Source of the DNA: a virus
DNA length: 27,510 nucleotides
IMG/VR virus record: IMGVR_UViG_3300010354_000496
Location: 1-27,510 of that record
Strand: one strand, 5' to 3'
Shown here piece after piece: positions 11,964 through 27,164 of the stretch; within the stretch, counting starts at the first letter, position 1, and every line of letters begins with the position of its first letter. Both the position numbers and the translations under genes were made by a program. The notes beneath the pieces are model-generated. The model saw only the letters and a list, made by a program, of their open reading frames with translations, was not told where the DNA came from and made no database searches.

Positions 11964-12320
11964 ATGGCTCAGACCAATTCGACCATGCGGGCTCTGGACC
12001 GGCTCAAGAAAGCAGCTAATCTTGTCCCGATCAAAAAAAGCGTTGAGCTGAGCAACGGAGATGTCTTTGAGTTCTACTGCCGTCCGCTCACCATGGCAGA
12101 GCGCGAGCGTGCTCTGAAAGAAGCAGGCACCGATGAAGCCAACGCATTTGCCTTGCAGCTGCTGATCGCCAAGGCAATGGATGAGAATGGTCGGCCATGC
12201 TTCAGGGCTGGCGAGATTGCTGAGCTGAAAGAAGAAACGCTGGATGCCGATCTACAAAGTCTGATGCTGGCTGTGATCACCGACAAGTATGACAGCATCG
12301 AGGTGGACGCAAAAAACTAA
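11964..12320 (+). CDS. Tail assembly chaperone, short form (gpG-like)
   Basis: The 118-residue protein lies between tube and tape measure genes, the fixed place for tail assembly chaperones. It has a central strand segment (VELSNGDVFEFYCRPLTMAE) and helices rich in Glu, Ala and Leu. The frame ends with GAC GCA AAA AAC TAA, so the slippery heptamer A AAA AAC overlaps the last codons (12311-12317) and the stop follows at once. This short form is made when ribosomes do not shift. It should bind the tape measure protein and recruit tube subunits. No Shine-Dalgarno is seen before the ATG. Confidence 0.85.
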   Translation: MAQTNSTMRALDRLKKAANLVPIKKSVELSNGDVFEFYCRPLTMAERERALKEAGTDEANAFALQLLIAKAMDENGRPCFRAGEIAELKEETLDADLQSLMLAVITDKYDSIEVDAKN

Positions 12321-21713: not shown

Positions 21714-24494
21714 ATGACTCTCCAGCATCTGCGTTCGAGCACTGCGAATAAGCGTCCGACCCCGGCTGCGATGGCGGATGGGCAGATTGCGATCAACAGC
21801 AATACAACCAGTCCTGGACTGTTTTTCAAGGATTCGGCTGGTGCGCTAATCAAGGTGGGTCCAGTGCATGTGGGCACCACAGCACCTAACGCCAGCCCTG
21901 CTGTAGGTGGTCAGACAGGTAATACCGTTGGCGAGCAGTGGCTAGATACGACTGGTGGCACCTACGTATTCAAAGTCTGGGATGGTTCGGCATGGCGCAG
22001 TGAAGCTGGCGAGTTTGTAAATACAACTGGCGACGTGATGACCGGCGCTCTCGGCATCATCGCCGGCACCGCAGGATCACCGAGCCTGTACGTCAGCGGT
22101 GGCACCAACAACACCGGCATCTACTCCCCTGGAGCGAATCAACTTGCGATCTCCACGGGCGGCCAGGGGCGGTTGTTTGTTGATGCGAGTGGAAATGTAA
22201 ATATCGGTACATCCCTTGGATACAGCGAGGCTTTCGGTGTCAGGGGTACATTTGTAAGTCAAGTCACCAACGTTGTTAATCGAATTACTGAAGCTGGTTC
22301 AGTTGCTTACTGGGGAACTGTCACGAACCATCCCCTCGCGTTTCAGACGAATGGGCAAGAGCGCCTGCGTATTGATACAAGTGGCAATGTCGCAGTCGGC
22401 AACGCGACCACAAATAACCGCTTTCTGATTTACACGGCTGGAGCAAACAATAGCTATCTGCAAATTGGAAACGGTTCCACTGGTCTTGCCTCAACACAGG
22501 GACTAAGAATTGGAACCCCCGCAGCGGGTAATGCTGAAATTATTACCGATGGCCTTATTGCCTTTGGTACTGGTAACACCGAACGCATGCGCCTGGACTC
22601 CAGTGGCCGCTTGGGCATTGGCACCACAAGTCCTTGGGAACTGTTGTCAATCCCGTTTAACAACAGACTATCACTGGGAGGCGCTACATTCCCATTCTCA
22701 ATTTCTCGTTCATCAAGTGGTGAGTTAATTACCACATTTGCGGATGGCTATGACGCCGCTACCGCTCGTGTTGATTTTGTAATGCGTTCTGGCAGTGCAT
22801 CACAAAATACTCCGCTAAGCATCACTGGCGCAGGTCGCGTGGGCATTGGCACCACGAGTCCTAGCTATATCTTTCACGCTCTTACGTCTGATACAACCTC
22901 TGCGGCATTTAGAAACCCAGGTGCTGCCAGTACACAAATCCTTATCGGTAATACTGCAGGTGATACGGCTATTCGGACTACTTCTGCCGGAGATGCGATT
23001 ATTTACTCCGACACAGGAAAGTCCTTGGGTCTTGGGACCAATGGCGCAACAACCCGTCTTCACATCACTTCGGCAGGACTGGTGGGCATTGGCACCACGA
23101 CGGTTGGTAATTTCAGGCTAAATGTTGAAGACAATAGTATTTATGGCTATCAAGCGCTTAATGTTCGCGCAACAAGTGCTGGCACAGATGCTGGCATCCG
23201 GCTATCAGGCGCTGGTGGAAATGCTTTTAGGCTTCAGCAGCCAACAGGATCAGCAGGTTTGTTTTTCTTTGACGAAACTAATCTTGCCGAACGCATGCGC
23301 CTGGACTCCAGTGGCCGTTTGGGTATTGGCACCACTACGCCAAGGTCTCTATTGAATGTGCGAGTAGATACCAATGCCAATACTCCAAGCGGTTCCGCTT
23401 CACTCGTTCTGTCAAATCGCAGCACAAGCCTTGCAACAGGAAATATGGCGGGCGGCATTTTTGCCGATATGTACAGAGATGTCAGTGATCCAGCTTATGC
23501 TGCAGGCATTTGGTTTAATCGTGTACAGAGCACGGGCAATCTTGATTCAGCCGGCGAAATTGTTTTCGGAGTGCAATCGGTTTCTTCTGGTGCTGGCACT
23601 CCACCCGAGCGCATGCGCATCGACAGCTCGGGCAGATTGCTCGTGGGGACGAGTACGGCGCGTGCAAACATTGACTATCAACTTGGCACCACCAGCGCAC
23701 GTTTCCAAGTTGAACGCGCAGATGCGCTTCCATGCGTATCGATTGTTTCGAATTTTGACTCTGCAACAACATCGGCCCCCGCTTATCTCACCCTTGCCAG
23801 GGCTGGTTCAACAGCAATCGGAAGTACAACGATTGTTGCAAATGGCAATCGTCTTGGTGAAATCGACTTCTCAGGTTCCGATGGAACTGATTTCACTATT
23901 GCAGCCTCTATTCGTGGTGAGGTAGACGGCACCCCCGGCGCAAATGACATGCCGGGCAGGCTTGTATTTTCCACGACGGCAGATGGTGCAGCGAGCCCGA
24001 CGGAAGCGTTCAGGGTTACGAGCGATAAATACCTCCGCATGGCGGCAGGCACCGGTGGCATCCAGTTCAACAGCGACACCGCAGCGGCTAATGCGCTGGA
24101 TGATTATGAGGAGGGGACGTTTGTTCCGACTGTAATCGGCTCGACTACTGCCGGAACAGCAACGTATTCAACACAGACAGGTATTTACACAAAAGTTGGT
24201 CGAAAAGTCACGGTCGTTGTTTACCTTAATTGGTCAGGCGGTACAGGCACAGGCAACTTACAGGTCAGCGGTCTACCGTTTACCGCCTTAGGCAGTGCCG
24301 GATACTATTACTCTGTTGACTTTGGATTAGTTGATAATATAGCGCTAACCGCCGCAAATGTAATTACTGGGTACGTTTCGCAGAATACTACAACGGTTGT
24401 ATTTGGCCAAACACCAAGTGGCGGGGGAGCATACAGTGTGGTTCCCTATGACGCTGCAGGGCATTTTATGTTTTCTTGTACATATTTCGCCTGA
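21714..24494 (+). CDS. Second tail fibre, cyanophage type, mosaic
   Basis: The 926-residue protein opens with TLQHLRSSTANKRPTPAAMA and continues with ADGQIAINSNTTSPGLFFKD, then KVGPVHVGTTAPN and GEQWLDTTGGTYVFKVWDGS. This order is typical of cyanophage fibres and probably forms the attachment domain. The middle is a shaft with repeated ERMRLDSSGRLGIGTTSP-like elements (about residues 290-650), diversified between copies. The C-terminal 135 residues (from EEGTFVPTVIGSTTAGTATY onward, with TGIYTKVGRKVTVVVYLNWS) form a beta-rich tip shared by many such fibres and are the likely receptor-binding part. Near-identical DNA repeats suggest that segments can be exchanged by recombination. Confidence 0.87.
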   Translation: MTLQHLRSSTANKRPTPAAMADGQIAINSNTTSPGLFFKDSAGALIKVGPVHVGTTAPNASPAVGGQTGNTVGEQWLDTTGGTYVFKVWDGSAWRSEAGEFVNTTGDVMTGALGIIAGTAGSPSLYVSGGTNNTGIYSPGANQLAISTGGQGRLFVDASGNVNIGTSLGYSEAFGVRGTFVSQVTNVVNRITEAGSVAYWGTVTNHPLAFQTNGQERLRIDTSGNVAVGNATTNNRFLIYTAGANNSYLQIGNGSTGLASTQGLRIGTPAAGNAEIITDGLIAFGTGNTERMRLDSSGRLGIGTTSPWELLSIPFNNRLSLGGATFPFSISRSSSGELITTFADGYDAATARVDFVMRSGSASQNTPLSITGAGRVGIGTTSPSYIFHALTSDTTSAAFRNPGAASTQILIGNTAGDTAIRTTSAGDAIIYSDTGKSLGLGTNGATTRLHITSAGLVGIGTTTVGNFRLNVEDNSIYGYQALNVRATSAGTDAGIRLSGAGGNAFRLQQPTGSAGLFFFDETNLAERMRLDSSGRLGIGTTTPRSLLNVRVDTNANTPSGSASLVLSNRSTSLATGNMAGGIFADMYRDVSDPAYAAGIWFNRVQSTGNLDSAGEIVFGVQSVSSGAGTPPERMRIDSSGRLLVGTSTARANIDYQLGTTSARFQVERADALPCVSIVSNFDSATTSAPAYLTLARAGSTAIGSTTIVANGNRLGEIDFSGSDGTDFTIAASIRGEVDGTPGANDMPGRLVFSTTADGAASPTEAFRVTSDKYLRMAAGTGGIQFNSDTAAANALDDYEEGTFVPTVIGSTTAGTATYSTQTGIYTKVGRKVTVVVYLNWSGGTGTGNLQVSGLPFTALGSAGYYYSVDFGLVDNIALTAANVITGYVSQNTTTVVFGQTPSGGGAYSVVPYDAAGHFMFSCTYFA
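22581..23341 (+). repeat. Near-identical 50-nt direct repeats in fibre 2
   Basis: The segments 22581-22634 and 23289-23341 encode the same ERMRLDSSGRLGIGTT element and differ at only a few bases. A shorter pair (22839-22862 and 23082-23105) shares GTGGGCATTGGCACCACGA. Such sites could allow in-frame gain or loss of shaft segments. Confidence 0.7.
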
Positions 24495-24560
24495 CATTAA
24501 GCCCGCAACGGCTAAAAACTAGGTGGCGACAAGCCGCCATACAAACCCTGTAAACCCGTT

Positions 24561-24575
24561 ACGTCTGGAGGACGT
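24561..24575 (+). promoter_or_regulatory. Hairpin with Shine-Dalgarno in the loop
   Basis: ACGTC (24561-24565) and GACGT (24571-24575) form a five-pair stem whose loop is TGGAG, part of the GGAGG element before the ATG at 24584. The site could be presented in the loop or hidden by longer pairing. Confidence 0.35.
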
Positions 24576-24583
24576 TCCTAAAC

Positions 24584-24787
24584 ATGGCTCTCACCAAAGA
24601 AACCGTTGTTGACAAAATTGAAGTCCTGGAAAGCAACGCAATCCAAGTGCGTTCTGCTATCCGCGTACTGGAAGATGGCGTAGTGCTGTCTTCCTCGTAT
24701 CACCGCCACGTGCTGCAGCCTGGTGATGATCTAACCAATGAAGACCCCAAAGTGGTGGCGATTGCTAACGCAGCTTGGGCGGAGTGA
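24584..24787 (+). CDS. Small conserved cyanophage protein, 67 residues
   Basis: The sequence (ALTKETVVDKIEVLESNAIQ, VRSAIRVLEDGVVLSSSYHR, HVLQPGDDLTNEDPKVVAIA) matches a small protein common in cyanophages next to fibre genes, with the fixed order KxETVVDKIEVLE...VRxAxRVLEDG...FHRH.L.PGDD. It has strands followed by a short helix and is soluble. The frequent link to fibre genes suggests a virion or fibre assembly role, but its function is not established. A GGAGG element lies 11-15 nt before the ATG. Confidence 0.8.
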   Translation: MALTKETVVDKIEVLESNAIQVRSAIRVLEDGVVLSSSYHRHVLQPGDDLTNEDPKVVAIANAAWAE

Positions 24788-25433: not shown

Positions 25434-25685
25434 ATGGAACACCACGAGGACATTCACGCTGCACCACCACAACCACCTAATCCAATCAATCAAGCTGTAC
25501 CTGCATTGTTAGCTACGGCTGTGATTGGGTTGGGTGGCCTTTTTATTCAAGTTGCCAAGCTGGATCAGTCGGTCAATACCGTCGCCGTCGATATTCAAGA
25601 ACTGAAGGTTGACAGTAAAGAACGGCTTTCGGATATTGAGACGCGGGTGCGAATGCTTGAGATGACGATTGGCAAGAACAAATAG
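25434..25685 (+). CDS. Holin-like or lysis accessory membrane protein, 83 residues
   Basis: From ATG 25434 the protein has a Pro/His-rich N-terminus, one transmembrane helix at about 26-45 (VPALLATAVIGLGGLFIQVA), then an amphipathic coiled coil (LDQSVNTVAVDIQELKVDSK, then RLSDIETRVRMLEMTIG) ending in KNK. One membrane helix plus a coiled coil is like the XhlA group of lysis accessory proteins, but in the reverse order. It sits three genes before the endolysin, so a holin, antiholin or spanin-like role is likely. A longer frame from 25296 exists, but this ATG avoids overlap with the basic protein. Confidence 0.65.
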   Translation: MEHHEDIHAAPPQPPNPINQAVPALLATAVIGLGGLFIQVAKLDQSVNTVAVDIQELKVDSKERLSDIETRVRMLEMTIGKNK

Positions 25686-25717: not shown

Positions 25718-25855
25718 ATGGATCCCACCACTGCTGCCATTGTTGCCATTGTCATTGCTGCAGGCTCTGAAATCATCAGTCTGCTGCCGATCAAAGAAAA
25801 CGGCTGGATTCAGTTACTGGTCAAGGCACTGAAGGTCGTCTTCCCAAAGCGCTGA
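25718..25855 (+). CDS. Small membrane protein, candidate holin, 45 residues
   Basis: The short frame ATG 25718 to TGA 25853-25855 encodes one hydrophobic helix near the N-terminus (TTAAIVAIVIAAGSEIISLL), a polar turn (PIKENGW) and a second amphipathic helix (IQLLVKALKVVFPKR) with a basic end. Similar small SEII...-type proteins occur in cyanophage lysis regions. A GAAGGA element lies about 15 nt before the ATG. The last codons contain a frameshift heptamer, described separately. It is directly upstream of the endolysin region. Confidence 0.7.
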   Translation: MDPTTAAIVAIVIAAGSEIISLLPIKENGWIQLLVKALKVVFPKR

Positions 25856-26112
25856 ACGGAAGCACGATATGGCTAGCGCGATTTGGCGACAGGACCTGGC
25901 GTGATCATCTGCGTAAAACAGCGCAGGATTACAAGTTTGAAAAGACGCTAGGTCCAAGACTGGATCGTGAAGAGCAAAAGTGGTTAGCGGATCAGCCGTT
26001 AGCACCAACACCTGTTGTGGTGCATGAACTGCCCGATGATGAGCTACAAACTGGCGAAAGCCGACATTTAGGCGGCGCCATGCAAATCAAAGCACCTTGG
26101 CTTGATCAATGA
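25718..26112 (+). CDS. Possible -1 frameshift fusion of membrane protein with 87-codon extension
   Basis: The downstream frame is open from 25771 to TGA 26110-26112 but has no ATG, GTG or TTG before 26017. A -1 shift at CCCAAAG (25843-25849) would join it to the membrane protein after residue 44, giving 131 residues. The extension reads ALNGSTIWLARFGDRTWRDH, continues charged and helical (LRKTAQDYKFEKTLGPRLDR), and ends with LGGAMQIKAPWLDQ. It therefore looks like a soluble cytoplasmic domain on a membrane anchor. Its stop overlaps the endolysin ATG (ATGA), as expected for a translated gene. Alternatives are a CTG start at 25852 overlapping the stop (CTGA), or a sequencing indel. Confidence 0.55.
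25843..25849 (+). promoter_or_regulatory. Candidate -1 frameshift site, C CCA AAG
   Basis: The heptamer follows the X XXY YYZ rule in the frame of the 45-residue gene (TTC CCA AAG CGC TGA), two codons before the stop. GCGCT (25849-25853) can pair with AGCGC (25875-25879) as a weak downstream stem. Confidence 0.55.
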
Positions 26113-27164
26113 GCACGATTCAACTGCGTGATGCTGCCAAGCATTTCAAGATGCTGCCGCATCAACTGGCCGCATGGGATTGGCTACAAGAACAGTTGCC
26201 GGTTGATACGGTTAACCAATTTGCTGAGTTGTATCGCGCAGATCCGCTACCAAAGCAAACGTTGCCGCCGGCATGGTTGGCACCAAGTCTCAAGATCATC
26301 AAAAAGTGGGAGGGCTGCAGGCTGGAAGCGTATCAGTGCCCAGCTGGTGTGCCAACCATTGGCTATGGCTCGACCAGGTTGATTGATGGTCCTGTTCGCA
26401 TGGGTGACAAGATCACGCAAGAGATGGCAGATGAGATGCTGCAGAACGAGGTGGAAAATCTATTCGCGCCTGGTATTTTTACCCTATTGCCAATGGCAAA
26501 GAAATGGCGTCCTGAGCAACAGGCTGCCATCGTGAGTTTTGCTTATAACGTCGGGCTTGGTGCACTCGAGGAATCAACCCTGCGAAAGCGTTTGCTGGCT
26601 GGCGAGGATGCTGCAAAGGTTGTGATTGAAGAACTGCCGCGATGGAATAAAGCTGGCAGCAAAGTGCTTGAAGGTCTTGTTAATCGTAGGAAAGATGAGG
26701 TTGCGCTTTTTACTGGCGGACAGCCTAAGCAGCAGTCTGCTTTGAGGCTGCGTCCTACATCACTGTTTGATGCCAAACTGACGCCGCATATCGCCATTGG
26801 CGAGTTTGCACTGTATCAAGAAGAACGACGTTTTGCTGCTGATTATCAGATCAAGACGGCAGCTGAACTGGCTGAGTTTCTAGAAAAAGTAAGAGCGCAT
26901 TTTGGTGGCAAGCCGATCATCATTACAAGCGGATATCGTCCTCCTGCTGTTAATCGGATGGTTGGTGGCGCCAGCAGCAGCGAGCATCTTTTCAATGATC
27001 AGGATATCGGCGCTGTTGACTTTTACGTCAAAGGCGAAGACATCCACAAAGTGCAAGATTGGTGTGACAAAAACTGGCCTTATAGCGTAGGCTATGGTGC
27101 GCCAAAAGGCTTTGTCCATCTAGGGATGCGCCGTGGTCGCCCTAAAGTCCGCTGGGATTATTGA
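26109..27164 (+). CDS. Two-domain endolysin: GH24 lysozyme and M15-type peptidase
   Basis: The 351-residue protein should cut both sugar and peptide bonds of the cell wall. After a helical N-terminal region (1-50), residues about 58-201 form a phage lysozyme domain with the triad pattern Glu68-x8-Cys77-x5-Thr83 (KKWEGCRLEAYQCPAGVPTI), in which Cys replaces the Asp of T4 lysozyme, and SFAYNVGLGA at 143-152. Residues about 225-351 match an M15-like D-Ala-D-Ala or L-Ala-D-Glu peptidase: TSGYRPPAVN (273-282), SEHLFNDQDIGAVDF with His293 and Asp304 as zinc ligands, and VHLGMRR with His337. No signal peptide is present, so it needs a holin. It starts in the stop of the preceding frame. Confidence 0.9.
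   Translation: MSTIQLRDAAKHFKMLPHQLAAWDWLQEQLPVDTVNQFAELYRADPLPKQTLPPAWLAPSLKIIKKWEGCRLEAYQCPAGVPTIGYGSTRLIDGPVRMGDKITQEMADEMLQNEVENLFAPGIFTLLPMAKKWRPEQQAAIVSFAYNVGLGALEESTLRKRLLAGEDAAKVVIEELPRWNKAGSKVLEGLVNRRKDEVALFTGGQPKQQSALRLRPTSLFDAKLTPHIAIGEFALYQEERRFAADYQIKTAAELAEFLEKVRAHFGGKPIIITSGYRPPAVNRMVGGASSSEHLFNDQDIGAVDFYVKGEDIHKVQDWCDKNWPYSVGYGAPKGFVHLGMRRGRPKVRWDY

Follow-up and report, generated by a model that had tools for sequence, protein, structure and literature searches.

The holin and antiholin of phage lambda, S105 and S107, differ at their N termini through the use of two start codons. In T7, 17.5 is the only known holin (PMC8365609). The accessible parts of a 2016 review of frameshifting and of the PRFect survey deal with tail chaperones, with proteins of the head, coat, and tail, with cro, with lysins decoded from a pair of overlapping genes, and with the lysis gene of MS2. 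A holin-like frameshift gene was found neither in those parts nor in searches of the full-text literature outside subscription papers, in agreement with an earlier note on this DNA, made from the sequence alone, which knew of no described case in phage lysis modules. The mechanism of -1 frameshifting is known; the gene and the setting described here appear to be new.

The DNA analyzed, referred to here as the window, is a stretch of 27,510 nucleotides (IMG/VR record IMGVR_UViG_3300010354_000496, positions 1 to 27,510) in which a gene for a very small membrane protein precedes an endolysin gene. Comparison with related phages makes it almost certain that the short gene ends in a programmed -1 frameshift site. 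The explanation as a whole, in which a frameshifted gene would yield a holin-like short form and a long form that modifies it, is one that we consider quite probable.

Layout of the locus and conservation of the slippery site

The features of the locus are listed in Table 1. The short gene ends in the codons TTC (25841-25843), CCA (25844-25846), AAG (25847-25849), CGC (25850-25852), and TGA (25853-25855), and the codons that follow a -1 slip are GCG CTG AAC GGA AGC (ALNGS). The heptamer CCCAAAG stands in X_XXY_YYZ phase exactly where the earlier note had placed it, and direct reading bears out to the base the accompanying description of an 87-codon -1 frame that lacks a start and overlaps the endolysin ATG. 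The first ATG, GTG, or TTG in that frame is the GTG at 26017, and the frame closes at the TGA at 26110-26112, which overlaps the endolysin ATG (26109) as ATGA. The small gene upstream, a possible partner in a lysis cassette, had no family match in profile searches; S-CBS3 and S-B28 also have a gene of like layout ahead of their short gene.

Table 1. Coordinates of the features of the locus, numbered from the first nucleotide of the window
Feature	Position	Strand	Remarks
Short form, 45-aa protein MDPTTAAIVAIVIAAGSEIISLLPIKENGWIQLLVKALKVVFPKR	25718..25855	+	one membrane helix, amphipathic helix, basic end
Slippery heptamer C_CCA_AAG	25843..25849	+	in 0-frame phase; 3 nt 5' of the 0-frame stop
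0-frame stop TGA	25853..25855	+	one codon past the heptamer
-1 frame extension	25849..26112	+	87 codons plus stop
Transframe product, 131 aa	25718-25849 joined to 25849-26109	+	
Endolysin, Phage_lysozyme plus peptidase M15	26109..27164	+	ATG overlaps the extension stop
Upstream small gene	25434..25685	+	N-terminal membrane helix plus coiled coil

Two other regions of the window may be mentioned. At the tail-chaperone position, a gene at 11964-12320 carries an in-phase A_AAA_AAC (12311-12317) near its end, followed by an open -1 frame; this heptamer is probably the first frameshift candidate of the earlier note and of the ordinary G/G-T kind. Positions 23922-24778 are about 86 to 93% identical in DNA to the podovirus S-CBP3, with other neighbors resembling siphoviruses, which we interpret as a recent exchange in the tail-fiber region.

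Protein-coding sequence matched by the window's -1 frame is present in the cultured cyanophages S-CBS3, S-CBS1, KBS-S-2A, and S-EIVl. In each it lies directly 3' of a gene for a small membrane protein, at the end of which stands an in-phase heptamer, A_AAA_AAG in the first three phages and G_GGA_AAG in S-EIVl. The T7-like marine cyanophages S-B28, 7B11-B, and WH11-B have the same arrangement (A_AAA_AAG TAA), which brings the cultured phages carrying it to seven. Public annotations begin the extension at internal codons in S-CBS3 (gp22) and S-CBS1 (gp23), and that of S-EIVl omits the short gene (annotation loci L001:2031-2198, L003:2004-2216, and L004:1654-1836 in our collection).

Scans of IMG/VR enlarged the set of relatives to more than 200 distinct sequences. 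Loci were gathered with protein queries, some covering both halves, and the scan patterns were degenerate at the DNA level and therefore did not bias the set toward slippery codons; since they favored loci with the extension, the frequency of extension-less homologs is underestimated. The extension was scored as present when the -1 frame matched the extension profile, and sequences were clustered at 80% identity. A search of a bacterial genome collection found no relatives of the short protein.

Where the extension is present, an in-phase X_XXY_YYZ motif lies 9 or 6 nt before the stop in 206 of 208 sequences (75 of 76 clusters); where it is absent, the motif occurs in none of 15 sequences (0 of 11 clusters). 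Fisher's test of motif versus extension on clusters gives a p value of 4e-13, uncorrected for ancestry and indicative since the clusters are not fully independent. Were synonymous codons at the site redrawn, the motif would be expected in 7.6 of 73 clusters, and the in-phase background, measured over 53,022 codons of the same loci, is 0.0025 per codon for X_XXY_YYZ and 0.00025 for XXXAAAG. Away from the end of the short gene the motif was found twice in 3,157 codons of short genes, and out of phase at that end in 0 of 76 clusters. Every motif-bearing relative has its stop 0 or 1 codon past the heptamer. Many synonymous sites vary in the window's group, among which the 11-mer TTCCCAAAGCG is invariant. 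Across the relatives the residue preceding KK varies (G, A, P, Q, E, S, R, K, V, T), and its codon always ends in A. Oinezvirus-like marine phages, which lack the extension, have a very similar protein end, LKPKKQA, encoded with AAG AAA CAG. The dominant heptamers among the relatives are A_AAA_AAG, G_GGA_AAG, and C_CCA_AAG, and because three different heptamers occur in three groups, shared ancestry alone is insufficient to explain the pattern. The comparison with related phages that the earlier note had proposed as a check found a slippery heptamer and its phase to be conserved, and the programmed -1 frameshift suggested there is upheld by a motif that is kept in siphovirus-like and T7-like cyanophages and absent where the extension is absent.

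In a ranking of all 64 heptamers in Escherichia coli, C_CC.A_AA.G, G_GG.A_AA.G, and A_AA.A_AA.G were on top, and shifting at C_CC.A_AA.G reached 54% with a strong pseudoknot (PMC4066793); the three that dominate among the relatives are thus the most efficient of all in that host. Slipping on AAG has been linked to having a tRNA-Lys with anticodon UUU as the only one available (PMC5009743); in Synechococcus RCC307, the 41 tRNA matches include one tRNA-Lys, of the UUU type, and no CUU form. Three clusters have weaker or broken motifs, L136 (CCCAAAA), L174 (AAAAAAC), and L177 (GAAAAAG), with L124 (GCCAAAG) as a fourth distinct case. L062 and L177 (the same contig) and L124 have the extension, lack the first base of the heptamer, and keep A_AAG, which is a weaker shift motif and makes them natural weakened sites. 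Folding and Shine-Dalgarno scans for a conserved stimulator found none that is universal among the relatives. Downstream stem-loop folding was mildly stronger than in shuffled sequences (mean z of -1.0, and 0.05 for the window), and Shine-Dalgarno-like 4-mers upstream of the site were not common to all relatives. Since neither a stem-loop nor a Shine-Dalgarno element is universal, the shift frequency may be low.

The extension as a protein domain

Selection on the extension acts in the -1 frame, with a dN/dS of 0.30 versus 1.1 and 1.5 in the other frames. In the first 15 codons past the junction, pN/pS is 0.18 versus 1.6 and 1.5, and in the first 50 extension codons of the window's group, a stretch in which the window itself has no start codon, the ratio is 0.29 versus 1.2 and 1.6. 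These ratios indicate that the -1 frame is protein coding from its first codons. No in-frame fusion of the two parts was found among the relatives, the short open reading frames with an extension all being of 45 to 50 codons, and it can be argued from the absence of fused relatives that both forms are needed.

The extension has a conserved C-terminal part, LQTG-SRLLGGAM-I-APW or DDLHIRAPW. That of the podovirus S-B28 matches phrog_6464 (E value of 6.6e-4), a free-standing protein of T4-like cyanophages (T4-GC 410), as does S-CBS2 gp048 (E value of 7.6e-9); the window's own extension did not reach significance directly against this profile. In the S-CBS2 and S-CRES3 relatives this domain is encoded separately, by a gene with a start codon of its own next to a short gene that has no heptamer. 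The earlier note had held that homologs with an ordinary start for the downstream frame would count against frameshifting; this applies in part, since distant relatives (S-CBS2, S-CRES3, and the T4-like cyanophages) carry a related C-terminal domain as a free-standing gene with an ordinary start, but the slippery site is also missing there. A free-standing domain without a slippery site fits an alternative way of expressing it, and as far as sequence can tell, the extension is a real domain that can be expressed in two ways.

The T4-GC 410 loci (L319:1267-1662, L320:1267-1662, and L321:1267-1653) have the C-terminal part in common with the extension, and in P-RSM1 and metaG-MbCM1 the gene adjoins a tail-tube-like gene and uvsY. 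The separate extension-like genes of S-CRES3, S-CBS2, and relatives are those at L005:1962-2405 and L227:1750-2240 and in L311 to L315; in S-CRES3 and in L311 to L315, a terminator-like element, made up of a G+C-rich hairpin and a run of T's, stands immediately before the ATG of the separate gene. Two of the eight loci returned by a viral search with one separate-gene relative, L317 and L318, were set aside as unrelated, the match lying inside a long RNA-phage-replicase-like open reading frame. A fold search with the extension gave no PDB match, its best viral matches being two unnamed proteins and T4-GC 852 of S-PM2 (E value of 0.012), and profile searches of solved structures returned nothing.

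The short membrane protein, its setting, and competing readings

The short protein is 45 to 50 aa long, with a hydrophobic helix (residues 3 to 22) and a basic tail, a size and charge in keeping with holins, for which a published size range begins at 49 aa. AlphaFold places helices at residues 3 to 22 and 29 to 41, and the conserved residues are S17 and E18 (an S-E pair), N28, and Q32. It matches phrog_22542 (E value of 7.2e-8); searches for a holin family gave only this family and phrog_15106, with no hit to Pfam or to an annotated holin. The charge pattern of the protein, acidic at its start and basic at its end, suggests an N-out/C-in topology, which would probably place the extension on the cytoplasmic side.

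The short gene and its extension adjoin the endolysin gene in the window, S-CBS1, S-CBS3, and KBS-S-2A. In S-B28, the short gene lies between the tail fiber and the small terminase, which we take to be the position of holin 17.5 in T7. In S-EIVl, no endolysin lies directly downstream, and the annotated gene that comes next is encoded on the opposite strand. The microvirus MH572431.1 (Microviridae sp. SD_MC_44) encodes an unannotated 46-aa homolog (L225:1489-1626; phrog_22542 at an E value of 4.5e-8) between the scaffold and replication genes of its 4.3-kb genome, with AGGAGG seven bases before the ATG. A search for further microviruses with the short protein found only MH572431. For a genome of that size, this would be a natural location for a lysis protein, and the open reading frame is a candidate lysis gene common to a microvirus and tailed cyanophages. 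Because of the gene position and the microvirus homolog, we hold with moderate confidence that the short form would be holin-like.

The frameshift could also be real and the membrane protein not a holin, serving some other membrane or assembly task in which the extension acts like the phrog_6464 protein. The phrog_6464 genes lie between tail-tube-like and UvsY genes, away from an endolysin, the families of the short protein and of the extension are both without an assigned function, and S-EIVl has no endolysin directly downstream. The place beside the endolysin in the siphoviruses, the T7 holin position in the podoviruses, and the stand-alone homolog in a microvirus all argue the other way, and we regard this alternative as unlikely.

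Much less probable is that shifted ribosomes serve mainly to reach the endolysin start, with an incidental extension. The stop-start overlap in the window would suit such coupling, and at least 43 of the 76 clusters have an endolysin-like open reading frame downstream, with an overlap in 37. However, the extension is under purifying selection as a protein, its C-terminal domain also exists on its own, and the gene that comes next is the small terminase in S-B28 and, by the annotation, an opposite-strand gene in S-EIVl. Coupling is therefore not the sole function, given the constraint on the extension protein and the different next genes in S-B28 and S-EIVl.

Very improbable, in turn, is independent translation of the -1 frame by re-initiation near or over the stop. 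A TTG or GTG does overlap the stop in 16 of 208 sequences and a CTG in 121; the overlapping codon is CTA, TTA, or GTA in 71 of the 208, however, an ATG, GTG, or TTG within 40 nt of the stop is present in only 26 of 76 clusters, and a start codon with a Shine-Dalgarno-like 4-mer is found near the stop in only 6 of 208 sequences. Re-initiation would also leave unexplained the conservation of the heptamer and the coding character of the frame before its first start. Transcriptional slippage on the A run, giving mixed mRNAs, has next to no probability: many relatives do contain A6G, but the groups of the window (CCCAAAG) and of S-EIVl (GGGAAAG) show the same arrangement with runs of three A's, which are too short for polymerase slippage of the known kind. 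A sequencing error or a chance match, in favor of which nothing was found, is equally hard to credit for an arrangement that recurs across independent assemblies, in over 200 distinct sequences, and in seven cultured phages, numbers that also dispose of the indel the earlier note had allowed for. All the readings in this paragraph, including a separate start for the -1 frame, were rejected.

Proposed decoding and comparison with known systems

In the preferred reading, a programmed frameshift in a holin-like gene, most ribosomes would stop at 25853 and release the 45-aa membrane protein. A minority would slip by -1 on C_CCA_AAG, with tRNA-Pro moving from CCA to CCC and tRNA-Lys from AAG to AAA, and would read the -1 frame to give the 131-aa form; a 0-frame stop 0 or 1 codon past the site may add a pause. 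The long form would consist of the same membrane part plus a domain of about 87 aa, mostly helical and probably cytoplasmic, and would most likely be a minor, membrane-tethered modifier of the short form, acting for example on lysis timing. As a secondary effect, shifted ribosomes may be brought to the endolysin start that overlaps the extension. That the long form regulates the short one is a suggestion that falls somewhat short of probable, and a holin/antiholin pair set by shift frequency, as the earlier note had it, is possible. It is a still more tentative proposal that lysis timing in a large group of cyanophages might be set by a heptamer-fixed ratio of a holin-like short form to its extended antagonist or modifier.

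These results add a conserved case of frameshifting, in a putative holin-like lysis-region gene of Synechococcus phages of the siphovirus-like and T7-like types. They point to two overlooked products in the sequenced isolates S-CBS1, S-CBS3, KBS-S-2A, S-EIVl, S-B28, 7B11-B, and WH11-B, where the longer protein is at present either unannotated or annotated from an internal codon, and they offer a testable hypothesis for lysis timing in viruses of abundant phototrophs. If true, it would be a new route to a holin/regulator pair from one gene.

The decoding most resembles that of the tail assembly chaperones G and G-T of lambda and other phages, in which X_XXY_YYZ lies near the end of the short gene and a minor, C-terminally extended -1 product has its N terminus in common with the short form. 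The cyanophage gene differs in encoding a small membrane protein at the endolysin or T7 holin position rather than before the tape measure, in having no sequence relation to G/G-T, and in having its stop 0 or 1 codon past the site. With T7 17.5 and other class III holins it shares the very small membrane protein, the gene position in the T7-like cyanophages, and, in the siphoviruses, adjacency to the endolysin; unlike them, it has no match to a holin family and has an extension made by frameshifting. The phrog_6464 protein (T4-GC 410; S-CBS2 gp048, S-CRES3 gp115) is related in its C-terminal part, but it is the product of a free-standing gene with its own start. The MS2 lysis gene and the head-protein frameshifts of phages A2, T3, and T7 are likewise cases of nonstandard decoding, one of them in a lysis gene; however, expression of the MS2 gene requires ribosomes to terminate and re-initiate where it overlaps another gene, and the A2, T3, and T7 products are capsid proteins. 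As with lambda S105 and S107, a single gene would give rise to a pair of related membrane proteins whose roles may be opposed. In the window, however, the short gene has a single ATG, at 25718, and the two cyanophage forms would differ at the C terminus, by frameshifting.
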